DNA from: Candidatus Poribacteria bacterium | GTDB lineage: Bacteria > Poribacteria > WGA-4E > WGA-3G | Direction: 5' to 3' | DNA: 64,000 bases | Assembly: GCA_022822085.1 (NCBI GenBank) | Contig: JAJECK010000035.1 | Coordinates: 1 to 64,000 of the forward strand | In this document: one piece after another, positions 41,925 to 45,378 of the stretch | Layout of the letters: each line of letters opens with the position of its first letter | Numbering within the stretch: the first letter of the stretch is position 1 | Translations under genes and position numbers: made by a program | Notes under the pieces: model-generated | What the model was told of the DNA's origin: nothing | The model's input: the letters and a program-made list of their open reading frames with translations, nothing else | Database searches by the model: none

Positions 41925-44900
41925 CTACACCTGCTCAACACTCAACGTAGCAGGTTCACCGTTGAGATTCTGATCTACACTAAACGCCTTCTTACTTGCC
42001 GATTCAACCACTTCAGTCGTCAAAGTCTCACTCAAAATATACTCCCGATGTGCTTCAAATGCCTCCGATACAAGCGCAGATGATGTTTTCACACTGAGCT
42101 TAATCCGATCAGACACATTAAAATCCGCATCCTTTCGCATGTTTTGGATTTTATTGACAAGTTCGCGCGCCATCCCTTCAAGCACTAATTCGTGTGTCAG
42201 TTCCGTTGACAATGCGACAAATTTCCTCGCATCCACCACTACAAAGAAACCTTCTCTATTCTGTGTCTGCACGTCGATTTCTGACTGCTCAAGGGTGTAG
42301 GTCTCACCGGATGCATCAATTTCTAAACTCCCATTCGCTTCCAATTCCGATTTCAACTGCATCGCATCCGCAGTAGCGAGTGCTTTAGCGATTGCCTGCA
42401 CACCCTTGCCATACTTCGGTCCCAACACCTTGAAGTTCGGTTTGAGAGTCACCTGTGCAAACGTGTCCAACTCTTCTGTAAATACGATTTCTTTAACATT
42501 CAACTCATCGTGAACGAAGGAGGATAGACGATTGACAGTCTCTTTTTCCGCTTCTGATAGTCCGCCGAGTGTGATTTCAGCAAGTGGTTGACGCGTCTTA
42601 ATACCGGAACGATTCCGAGCAGCATGCCCCATACTGATAACCTCGCGTGTGAAAGCCATATCGTCTTCTAACGTGGCATCTATTAACGCATCATCTGCAT
42701 TCGGGTATTCTGCAAGGTGAACGCTCAGCGGTGCATCGGAGTCAAGCGAACAGACTAAGTTGCGATAGAGCTCATCTGCCAAGAACGGAATAAACGGTGC
42801 AGCAAGTTTCGCAACAGTCACAAGCACCTCATACAACGTGGCATAAGCTGCGTGTTTGTCTTGTCCTGCCTCCGCGCCCCAAAAGCGGCCACGGGAACGA
42901 CGAACATACCAGTTGCTAAGGTCATCCACAAACGCTTCAATAGCTCGTGGTGCATTCGTCAGATGGTAATTCTCCATGTCGTCTCGCACCTTATTGATCA
43001 AGGTCCGCAATCGGGACAAAATCCATCTGTCTATCATCGCACGTTCAGAAACCGGTGGTGCATCTTGCCACGGCGCGCGAGGTTGGAAAACCTCGCCAGC
43101 AATTTCCAAATTGGCATACATCACGAAGAAACTATAGACATTGTGTAGTGTTCCCATGAACTTCTTCAACGCTTCATCAATGCTTTCCGGTTGGAAAGTC
43201 CGTTGTGCCCAAGGCGGAGAGCCAGTGAACATATACCACCGCATCGCATCTGCACCCTGCTCATTCAAAATCGTCCACGGGTCTACTGTGTTACCTCGAC
43301 TTTTGCTCATTTTCTGCCCATCGGAAGCGAGTATCAACTCAAGACAGAGGCAGTTTTTATATGCAGGTTTGTCGTATAGAAGTGTGCCAGTTGCCAACAG
43401 ACTGTAGAACCAACCACGAGTCTGGTCAATTCCTTCCGAGATGAAGTCGACAGGATAGGTACGTTCAAATAACTCCTTGTTTTCAAAAGGATAGTGCCAT
43501 TGTGCCGTGTGTGCACAACCTGAGTCAAACCAACAATCAATCACATCCTGAATGCGATGCATTGTGCCGCTACACTTCTCACAAGTCAGCACAACGTCGT
43601 CAACATAGGGACGGTGGAGTTCAATATCATCAGGCACATCACGACCGAGTTCCTTCAGTTCCGCAATACTACCAACGCAGTGTTGATGTCCACAATCGTC
43701 ACATATCCAAATAGGAAGCGGTGTTCCCCAATAACGTTCCCGACTCAATCCCCAGTCAATGTTGTTTTCCAACCAGTTACCAAACCTGCCATCTTTGATA
43801 TGCTCAGGATACCAGTTGATCTCCTGATTGTGCTGACGCATCTGGTCTCGGATTGCAGTCGTCCGGATAAACCACGATTCACGCGCATAATACAACAACG
43901 GGTTATCACATCGCCAACAGAACGGATATTGGTGTGTGTACTCAGCTGCCTTGAACAACAACCCACGTTCATCTAAGTTTTCTATGATCATCGGGTCGGC
44001 ATCTTTGACATATTCACCTGACCACACATCCTTAACTTCTGGGACAAACTTACCATCCGCACCCACCAACTGCACAAACGGTAGATTGTGTTTTTGACCG
44101 ATATCGTAGTCATCTTGACCAAAAGCAGGTGCGATATGGACTAATCCGCTTCCCTCTGTGGTCGTTACGAAGTCACCAGGGACAATATAATAGGACTTTT
44201 CGTCATGCTCTCCAGCATCAAAAAGCGGTTCATATTCCCAATCGAGTAGGTCGCTGCCCTTATAGTTTTCAACAATCTGTGGAGGTTCATCACCAAATAA
44301 TCCTTGCATGCATTCCTTTGCAAGGATAAGTTTTTTACCATTTTCTTCAACAGCGACATAATCGTCCTCTTCACCGACAGCAACAGCGACGTTTGAAGGC
44401 AACGTCCACGGAGTCGTTGTCCACACAAGCAGATAGGTCCCTTCTCTATTCTTCAGTGGAAATCGTACAAAGATGGACGGGTCAGCTACCTCTTGGTAAC
44501 CGAGTGCAACTTCATGACTTGCCAACGTTGTCCCACACCGATAGCAATACGGCTGCACCTTATGTCCCTGATACAGCAGTTTTTTGTCCCAGGCTTGCCG
44601 CAACACCCACCACACACTCTCAATATAATCATTTGACAACGTAATATACGCTTCATCTAAGTTCACCCAGAATCCGATACGTTCCGTCATCTCACGCCAA
44701 TCCTGCTCATATTGGAAGACGTTTTCCTTGCACTTCTCAATAAAGTTTTGAACACCGTAAGCCTCTAATTCCGCTTTATTTCTGATGTTGAGTTGTTTCT
44801 CCACCTGATACTCAACAGGAAGTCCGTGCGTGTCCCAACCTGCTTTTCTGTGGACATAATGTCCAGTCATCGTCTTATATCGGCACACAGCGTCCTTCAT

Positions 44901-45089
44901 GATGCGTGCAAGGACGTGATGCACACCGGGTGGGGCATTTGCAAACGGCGGTCCTTCAAGGAAAATAAACGGCGGCGCGTCCTTGTACATCTCCATGCTT
45001 TTCTCAAAGATGTCGTTTTCACGCCAGAACGCAAGCGTCTGTTTCTCCTTTTCTGCAAAGGTAAATTGTGGTGATACTTCTTCAAACAT
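41925..45089 (-). CDS. ileS: Isoleucyl-tRNA synthetase, IleRS2-like with GVHH in place of HIGH
   Basis: IleRS charges tRNA-Ile and edits valine. The start is taken at ATG 45089 (GAGGA upstream), giving 1054 residues. Class I elements are FIFLEGPPFANAPPGVHHVL (about 41-60), KAGWDTHGLPVEYQVEK, and DGQKMSKSRGNTVDPW. At the signature position Gly55-Val56-His57-His58 replaces the usual H-x-G-H. In work on mupirocin-resistant IleRS2 the same altered signature (GXHH) was linked to hyper-resistance. Upstream are a promoter, leader ORF and terminator. A palindromic repeat (43077-43096) lies in-frame in the coding sequence, in the linker AGEVFQPRA. Confidence 0.95.
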   Translation of the reverse strand: MFEEVSPQFTFAEKEKQTLAFWRENDIFEKSMEMYKDAPPFIFLEGPPFANAPPGVHHVLARIMKDAVCRYKTMTGHYVHRKAGWDTHGLPVEYQVEKQLNIRNKAELEAYGVQNFIEKCKENVFQYEQDWREMTERIGFWVNLDEAYITLSNDYIESVWWVLRQAWDKKLLYQGHKVQPYCYRCGTTLASHEVALGYQEVADPSIFVRFPLKNREGTYLLVWTTTPWTLPSNVAVAVGEEDDYVAVEENGKKLILAKECMQGLFGDEPPQIVENYKGSDLLDWEYEPLFDAGEHDEKSYYIVPGDFVTTTEGSGLVHIAPAFGQDDYDIGQKHNLPFVQLVGADGKFVPEVKDVWSGEYVKDADPMIIENLDERGLLFKAAEYTHQYPFCWRCDNPLLYYARESWFIRTTAIRDQMRQHNQEINWYPEHIKDGRFGNWLENNIDWGLSRERYWGTPLPIWICDDCGHQHCVGSIAELKELGRDVPDDIELHRPYVDDVVLTCEKCSGTMHRIQDVIDCWFDSGCAHTAQWHYPFENKELFERTYPVDFISEGIDQTRGWFYSLLATGTLLYDKPAYKNCLCLELILASDGQKMSKSRGNTVDPWTILNEQGADAMRWYMFTGSPPWAQRTFQPESIDEALKKFMGTLHNVYSFFVMYANLEIAGEVFQPRAPWQDAPPVSERAMIDRWILSRLRTLINKVRDDMENYHLTNAPRAIEAFVDDLSNWYVRRSRGRFWGAEAGQDKHAAYATLYEVLVTVAKLAAPFIPFLADELYRNLVCSLDSDAPLSVHLAEYPNADDALIDATLEDDMAFTREVISMGHAARNRSGIKTRQPLAEITLGGLSEAEKETVNRLSSFVHDELNVKEIVFTEELDTFAQVTLKPNFKVLGPKYGKGVQAIAKALATADAMQLKSELEANGSLEIDASGETYTLEQSEIDVQTQNREGFFVVVDARKFVALSTELTHELVLEGMARELVNKIQNMRKDADFNVSDRIKLSVKTSSALVSEAFEAHREYILSETLTTEVVESASKKAFSVDQNLNGEPATLSVEQV
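43077..43096. repeat. Palindromic repeat inside the ileS coding region
   Basis: GCGAGGTT and AACCTCGC (8-base stem) flank GGAA. It keeps the frame and codes for part of AGEVFQPRA, a linker before the anticodon-binding domain. The intergenic palindrome at 27191-27212 is a near match, so the repeat seems to have entered the gene in-frame. Confidence 0.6.
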
Positions 45090-45113
45090 GCGGTAGTTCC
45101 TCATATAATGCTT

Positions 45114-45160
45114 AAAAAACAAAACGCCCCACCGAAATCCGTTGTTTCAGTGATGGGCGT
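45114..45160 (-). terminator. Attenuator terminator in the ileS leader
   Basis: On the minus strand ACGCCC and CACTGAAA (45160-45145) pair with TTTCGGTG and GGGCGT (45137-45124), with a 2-base bulge and one G-T wobble, followed by a T-tract (TTTGTTTTTT, 45123-45114). It lies 25 bases before the ileS start. Its 5' arm also can pair with 45193-45200, so it is a 3:4 hairpin of attenuation type. Confidence 0.8.
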
Positions 45161-45188
45161 CCTAATAATACTGCTTATCTGCTTGCAA

Positions 45189-45302
45189 TTAACCCACCAC
45201 AGCACGACGAATAGCAATAATAATTCGTTCGACGTGAAGGGATACTTGGTTTGGGGCAGATTTACACTGCAATGTTGGTGCGGTAAGCGACTGATAAAAC
45301 AT
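45189..45302 (-). CDS. Ile-rich leader peptide of ileS
   Basis: ATG 45302-45300, 37 codons to TAA 45191-45189: begins MFYQSLTAPTLQ and ends with ERIIIAIRRAVVG. Codons 27, 28, 29 and 31 are ATT (45224-45216 and 45212-45210). The GTGGTGGG of the last three codons (45200-45193) is complementary to CCCATCAC (45157-45150), the terminator's 5' arm, with one G-T wobble. Stalling at the Ile codons would leave this segment free and favour antitermination; a ribosome at the stop codon would cover it. A ribosome site (ACGAGA) before the ATG is weak. Confidence 0.7.
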   Translation of the reverse strand: MFYQSLTAPTLQCKSAPNQVSLHVERIIIAIRRAVVG

Positions 45303-45348
45303 CTGATTATCTCGTTTAAAACTTGGTTTGGATTGTGTCTCTAATTAT

Positions 45349-45378
45349 ATAATACTACAAACTATAGTTAGGTGTCAA
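45349..45378 (-). promoter_or_regulatory. Sigma-70 promoter of the ileS leader
   Basis: On the minus strand TTGACA (45378-45373) and TATTAT (45354-45349) are 18 bases apart. Transcription would start near 45342, about 40 bases before the leader ATG. Confidence 0.7.

Follow-up and report, generated by a model that had tools for sequence, protein, structure and literature searches.

The pheST genes of E. coli are preceded by a leader peptide, PheM, that carries cognate codons, and competing antiterminator and terminator structures control this synthetase gene. An earlier note on the DNA analysed here, made from its letters alone, rightly named pheST as a known case of attenuation at an aminoacyl-tRNA synthetase gene. 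It slightly overstated how rare such cases are, however, since another one was proposed in 2021: uORFC-8-2, found before cysS in Rhodobacterales, is predicted to be a ribosome-mediated attenuator with tandem cognate codons and a U-run terminator (PMC8632094). A further uORF-associated attenuation candidate, uORFC-13-1, precedes aroF in Acholeplasma (PMC8632094), and ilvB leader ORFs of Actinobacteria, which lie before biosynthesis operons, carry runs of Ile/Val/Leu codons overlapping terminator hairpins, their mode of regulation having been left unclear (PMC1262725). As for ileS, the note's statement that this gene is usually tied to T-boxes agrees with the ileS T-boxes described in Firmicutes and Actinobacteria (PMC2494555, PMC1262725).

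Regulation in Poribacteria has hardly been studied, and ileS has so far been linked chiefly to T-boxes. The note knew of no described ileS case of this kind, and we found no report in open-access full text of a leader-peptide attenuator of ileS, of attenuation in Poribacteria or of one switch re-coded across synthetase genes. Leader-peptide attenuation is known, but the ileS case and the phylum-wide re-coded module presented here are apparently undescribed. In the window, the whole stretch of 64,000 nucleotides of Poribacteria DNA that was analysed, the leader upstream of ileS is highly likely to be a ribosome-mediated transcription attenuator that senses tRNA-Ile charging, controls ileS and belongs to a family of Poribacteria attenuators.

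Parts of the ileS leader

The whole leader arrangement lies on the minus strand, in the 290 bases upstream of ileS (41925-45089), which encodes an isoleucyl-tRNA synthetase (NCBIfam TIGR00392, 943 bits for a cut-off of 621), and every coordinate given for its parts in the earlier note was confirmed on the sequence. It starts with a sigma-70-type promoter (45349-45378, 11 of 12 positions matching), in which TTGACA (45378-45373) and TATTAT (45354-45349) are separated by 18 nt, followed by a weak ribosome-binding site and a leader ORF of 37 codons (45189-45302, MFYQSLTAPTLQCKSAPNQVSLHVERIIIAIRRAVVG*). The predicted sensor (45210-45224) consists of Ile ATT codons at positions 27-29 (45224-45216) and 31 (45212-45210) of this ORF, the first of them 24 nt ahead of segment 2, the very distance noted before. 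Segment 2 (GTGGTGGGT, 45192-45200, codons 35-37) is the 5' strand of the antiterminator, as identified by pairing and cross-family covariation, and its core GTGGTGGG (45200-45193; also given as GTGGTGGGC) overlaps the last codons of the ORF. The antiterminator and the terminator have one strand in common, segment 3 (GCCCATCAC, 45150-45158), which pairing and covariation identify as the 3' strand of the former and the 5' strand of the latter; CCCATCAC (45157-45150) lies within this 5' arm. The intrinsic terminator with its U-tract (segments 3:4, 45114-45160) was recognised from sequence, folding and covariation.

This arrangement is not due to chance. The 3' half of the leader (121 nt) folds with a z-score of -3.3 and none of 200 shuffles was equally stable, the duplex formed by GUGGUGGG and the terminator arm, a complementarity claimed in the earlier note, was equalled by only 0.4% of shuffles, and the entire arrangement is found again in 54 of the family's 59 genomes (see below). 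The whole leader gave a z-score of -0.2 against shuffles, a value near zero being expected because its 5' part is only coding. The top-scoring models for the isoleucyl-tRNA synthetase itself (41925-45089) are MupB (974 bits) and MupA (956 bits), both below the cut-offs of 1900, and from these best scores the enzyme is probably of the eukaryote-like type.

From these parts we infer that the leader is transcribed, that ribosomes stall on it, that transcription ends at its terminator and that the outcome depends on isoleucine. RNA polymerase would transcribe the leader with a ribosome trailing on the 37-codon ORF. When Ile-tRNA is ample, this ribosome would reach the stop codon just past GTGGTGGG and cover the segment, so that GCCCATCAC would pair with the downstream arm, form the terminator and turn ileS off. 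When Ile-tRNA is scarce, the ribosome would stall at the ATT codons and leave GTGGTGGG free to pair with GCCCATCAC before the last arm exists, and polymerase would read on into ileS. The leader would thereby very probably turn ileS on when isoleucine is short.

Conservation, covariation and folding in relatives

We looked for ileS in 83 genomes of the class, retrieved its upstream regions and searched family f1 with a covariance model of the leader, which found it ahead of ileS in 54 of the 59 genomes. Four leader-less genomes (G025, G028, G049 and G058) have no assembled ileS 5' end, while G026, where a promoter stands immediately ahead of ileS without any leader, represents a true loss; in G030 and G048, the leader lies at a contig end, separate from ileS. 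One genome, G040, has two ileS copies (L015 and L040), 88% and 87% identical to that of the window, each with its own attenuator.

The comparison of related ileS leaders that the earlier note had proposed showed that the Ile codons, the frame, the competing stems, the promoter and the spacing are conserved, turning a guess from a single sequence into a well-supported reading. In family f1, the peptide mostly ends in ..IIIAIRRAVVG, and nearly all members carry a run of Ile codons, mostly 2-5, at the same distance. The reading frame is kept across the family: gaps in the aligned coding part all measure 3, 6, 9 or 18 nt, against 1, 2 or 4 nt in the spacer and loop, these being per-sequence counts and not independent events, with ATT repeats slipping in threes anyway. 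A promoter with at least 10 of 12 matches stands at the corresponding place in 46 of the 48 leaders, compared to 97 of 960 shuffled regions (about 10%). A codon-position variability test on the leader peptide gave no significant coding selection and no signal in the N-terminal part, which is expected if only the frame and the sensor codons matter, and the coding case therefore rests on the frame-preserving gaps and the codon runs.

The 2:3 and 3:4 stems, whose covariation the note had put forward as a check, both covary across families. Among 50 f1 leaders, the 9-pair antiterminator is paired in 99.8% of cells and nearly invariant, and covariation is weak there because segment 2 hardly varies within the family. 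In a cross-family alignment of 16 leaders, 97.7% of antiterminator cells are paired, and 4 pairs show changes on both sides; for the terminator, the figures are 90% and 5 pairs. Twelve of the aligned rows were found by their position upstream of ileS, while L087, L093, L095 and L096 were found by a model already holding the antiterminator and lean to it. Neither covariation score was reached by any of 500 shuffles, which do not remove relatedness, and sliding the partners by 1-3 columns left 32-59% of antiterminator and 31-53% of terminator cells paired.

These pairings bear on whether the leader could instead be a riboswitch of the T-box type, to which uncharged tRNA-Ile would bind directly, as T-boxes are common at ileS elsewhere (PMC2494555, PMC1262725) and the segment holds a UGGU that might contact a tRNA through its ACCA end. 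The partner of this segment is however the terminator arm, which covaries with it, and the ORF frame and Ile codons are conserved even though a T-box needs neither. Moreover, neither the window nor 20 related loci matched any curated Rfam family, amino-acid leaders included, at gathering score, and there was no T-box among the weak matches. We therefore regard a T-box as extremely improbable and retain the ribosome-sensing attenuator.

Folding predictions with ViennaRNA agree with such an attenuator. For 49 leaders, with transcripts ending before segment 4 and a ribosome masking 13 nt from the start of an Ile codon, the mean predicted antiterminator probability rose from 0.47 without ribosome to 0.88 when the ribosome sat on the first Ile codon and to 1.0 when it sat on the last (0.20, 0.97 and 1.0 for the genome of the window). 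A ribosome at the stop codon would cover segment 2 in all 49 leaders, and these modelled states support the idea, already in the note, that a stall leaves the segment free and stop-codon occupancy covers it. Once segment 4 is included, the terminator prevails whatever the state (mean 0.98-0.99); since the full-length RNA prefers the terminator at equilibrium, the switch must be kinetic. RNAalifold also pointed to a hairpin that may span the stop codon of the leader (45181-45203, GCTGTGGT / ATTGC-AGC), paired in 93% of cells with no double-sided change; it would sequester half of segment 2 and, as a suggestion only, might act as an anti-antiterminator.

Three features that characterise an attenuator were found at ileS: a short ORF with a codon run for the regulated amino acid, an intrinsic terminator between this ORF and ileS and, from sequence, covariation and folding, a mutually exclusive antiterminator whose 5' strand would be exposed by a stall and covered at the stop codon.

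In many relatives, the spacing between terminator and ileS ranges from about 56 to more than 600 nt and is filled with varying repeat-like DNA, the leader being intact (e.g. L108, L016 and L039).

The leader ORF could also control translation of ileS instead of transcription termination, by reinitiation, through which leader ORFs have been proposed to raise downstream translation (PMC4833913), or by start-site masking. The conserved and covarying terminator with its U-tract argues against this, and the variable distance between terminator and ileS, with its inserted DNA, speaks against close coupling, which makes an action on translation very unlikely compared to transcription attenuation.

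Divergent leaders and other downstream genes

Divergent versions of the leader also stand ahead of ileS elsewhere in the class, in families other than f1, and in G084, a genome from outside the class (..DDIIIIRLLQTMVG.., also given as ..LALNDDIIIIRLLQTMVGAEISS). Leaders of families f3/f4 (G016 MEIRIVYSSPSTHKSIRETESRNIRLSIGIISIIIIIPSCDGGLMETK, G023 MLTITVIISSVLISIIILIDGGQKA) carry the segment GATGGTGGG in a reading frame that differs from that of f1; since the Ile run stays in place in f3, it is the RNA and not the peptide end that appears to be selected. The leader of G011, read from the sequence, is MPPFDGIAVLIIIIP, in some f7 members (G007 and G009) the Ile codons number only two or three, and in G024 the leader ORF is interrupted. 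The f5 ileS leaders, rich in Phe, Tyr and Trp and not in Ile (G002, L061: MNRLLTIDVEARIYIFLFWLSYFYALGLFRVVGRLKGS; G001, L151: ..LLTRFWPFFYASILPGMVGRLRRA), do not fit the Ile-sensing picture and count against it.

While the note described a single ileS attenuator, which stands, it underestimated the scope of the switch, which also precedes other amino-acid genes with other sensor codons. The ileS-leader model already found weaker second loci, and a broader model, R2, gave matches in 77 of the 85 genomes and in 17 of the phylum's 22 genera, the downstream genes being named by NCBIfam for representatives and by eye for the others. Leaders before DAHP synthase, often with leuA next, read ..FVFYLYLYLYLYGNDRW and ..TLYFFYLYLFLLYLRCDGG; those before tyrS read ..YLYYYTSVLFVPALYLHGDGG (G013), ..SQPYFYYTYQYVYSLL (G084) and ..RSNFYYYYCG (G083), those before leuS ..SALALRLRLLGLLRL (G003) and ..VVLVRLRLALAVL (G019), and one before leuA ..FILYALLLWLCGG..DDLALALLQTG (G083). 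Others precede cimA (G002 ..AVIAIIIIIRIAAPC, G001 ..ELISIISIRIARPGG), the first enzyme of a route to isoleucine. Weaker single cases are an argD-like gene with Arg codons (G013, L218: ..FIRVRRSRSG), a DhnA-like gene with trpC and Trp codons (G084, L220: ..NYWRWYWRFE) and a metG-like gene with Met codons (G024, L214: ..IIMIFMMVELNGG). The genome of the window has a second copy of its own, L156 (G000:C80:24063-24182, E 0.008 with R2), located before DAHP synthase and leuA, whose leader is rich in Phe/Tyr/Trp (..LLRGFYFSLWVLFTLGLYPFTYCGGKW). Upstream of the other class I synthetase genes of this genome, identified by eye as valS, leuS and metG, no such leader was seen.

The sensor codons fit the downstream gene: when gene labels were permuted among 36 leaders that represent six genes, with roughly one leader for each genus and gene, not one of 100,000 permutations gave a sum as high as that observed (193, for a mean of 138), in a set hand-chosen from hits of a model that spans the last few codons before the segment, with genus relatedness kept in. 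The scored stretch of each leader was 66 nt long and stopped 3 nt short of the segment; it was read in three frames, with the best frame kept per amino-acid class, so that the score is frame-agnostic and diluted.

Some hits were set aside. Weak ones before HisRS (G024), a threonine-synthase-like gene (G014) and acetyltransferase-like genes (G084) have no matching codons, and L210, L219 and L222 look like chance. A search for the exact switch pattern in 84,980 species genomes returned 17 hits, 10 of them outside Poribacteria, without the second terminator arm and apparently due to chance. A second copy occurs in about 28 genomes of genus g4, and the copies that were read precede a CBM9/DUF5916 protein and have no clear codon run; these paralogous leaders (L087-L092, L097-L106 and others; e.g. 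MFYLSLTTLIHENCLCTFIGLGIVLIGISMCRAEVGL) have the same terminator.

A further reading is that the leader senses branched-chain amino acids generally, or any ribosome pausing, rather than isoleucine specifically, considering that Val (GTG GTG) and Leu codons are also present in leaders, that f5 leaders are aromatic and that the DUF5916 copy has no clear run. The Val codons are nevertheless the antiterminator sequence itself, read in another frame in f3, whereas Ile runs are kept, vary by whole codons and change with the gene. Such broad sensing is thus quite unlikely compared to sensing of isoleucine at ileS.

Judging from these sequences, one switch with Ile, Leu, Tyr or Phe/Tyr/Trp sensors suggests a reusable regulatory module across the phylum. 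It is fairly probable that an ancestral switch was duplicated within Poribacteria and re-coded, giving one module for the supply of Ile, Leu, Tyr, aromatic amino acids and perhaps Arg, Trp and Met, as a ribosome-based counterpart of the T-box regulon.

Comparison with known attenuators and T-boxes

By analogy, the ileS leader would work like pheST or trp attenuation in E. coli. It resembles pheST in its synthetase gene, its leader peptide with cognate codons and its competing antiterminator and terminator, but differs in amino acid, gene, phylum and sequence, and the Poribacteria switch precedes several synthetase genes. With ileS as its gene and Ile as its sensor codons, it falls outside uORFC-8-2, an alphaproteobacterial candidate for Cys whose codons lie within the first of its two stems and which precedes a single gene (PMC8632094). 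uORFC-13-1, from another phylum, can be likened to the DAHP synthase copy of the window's genome by gene function, and the ilvB leaders are likewise short ORFs with codon runs, but before biosynthesis genes and not ileS. T-boxes also raise ileS when tRNA-Ile is uncharged, and they too are one element re-coded for many synthetase genes; the sensor in Poribacteria would instead be a ribosome translating an ORF, and no T-box match was found there. If this is true, Poribacteria have a ribosome-sensing module that can be re-targeted by codon swaps, just as T-boxes are by swaps of their specifier codon.
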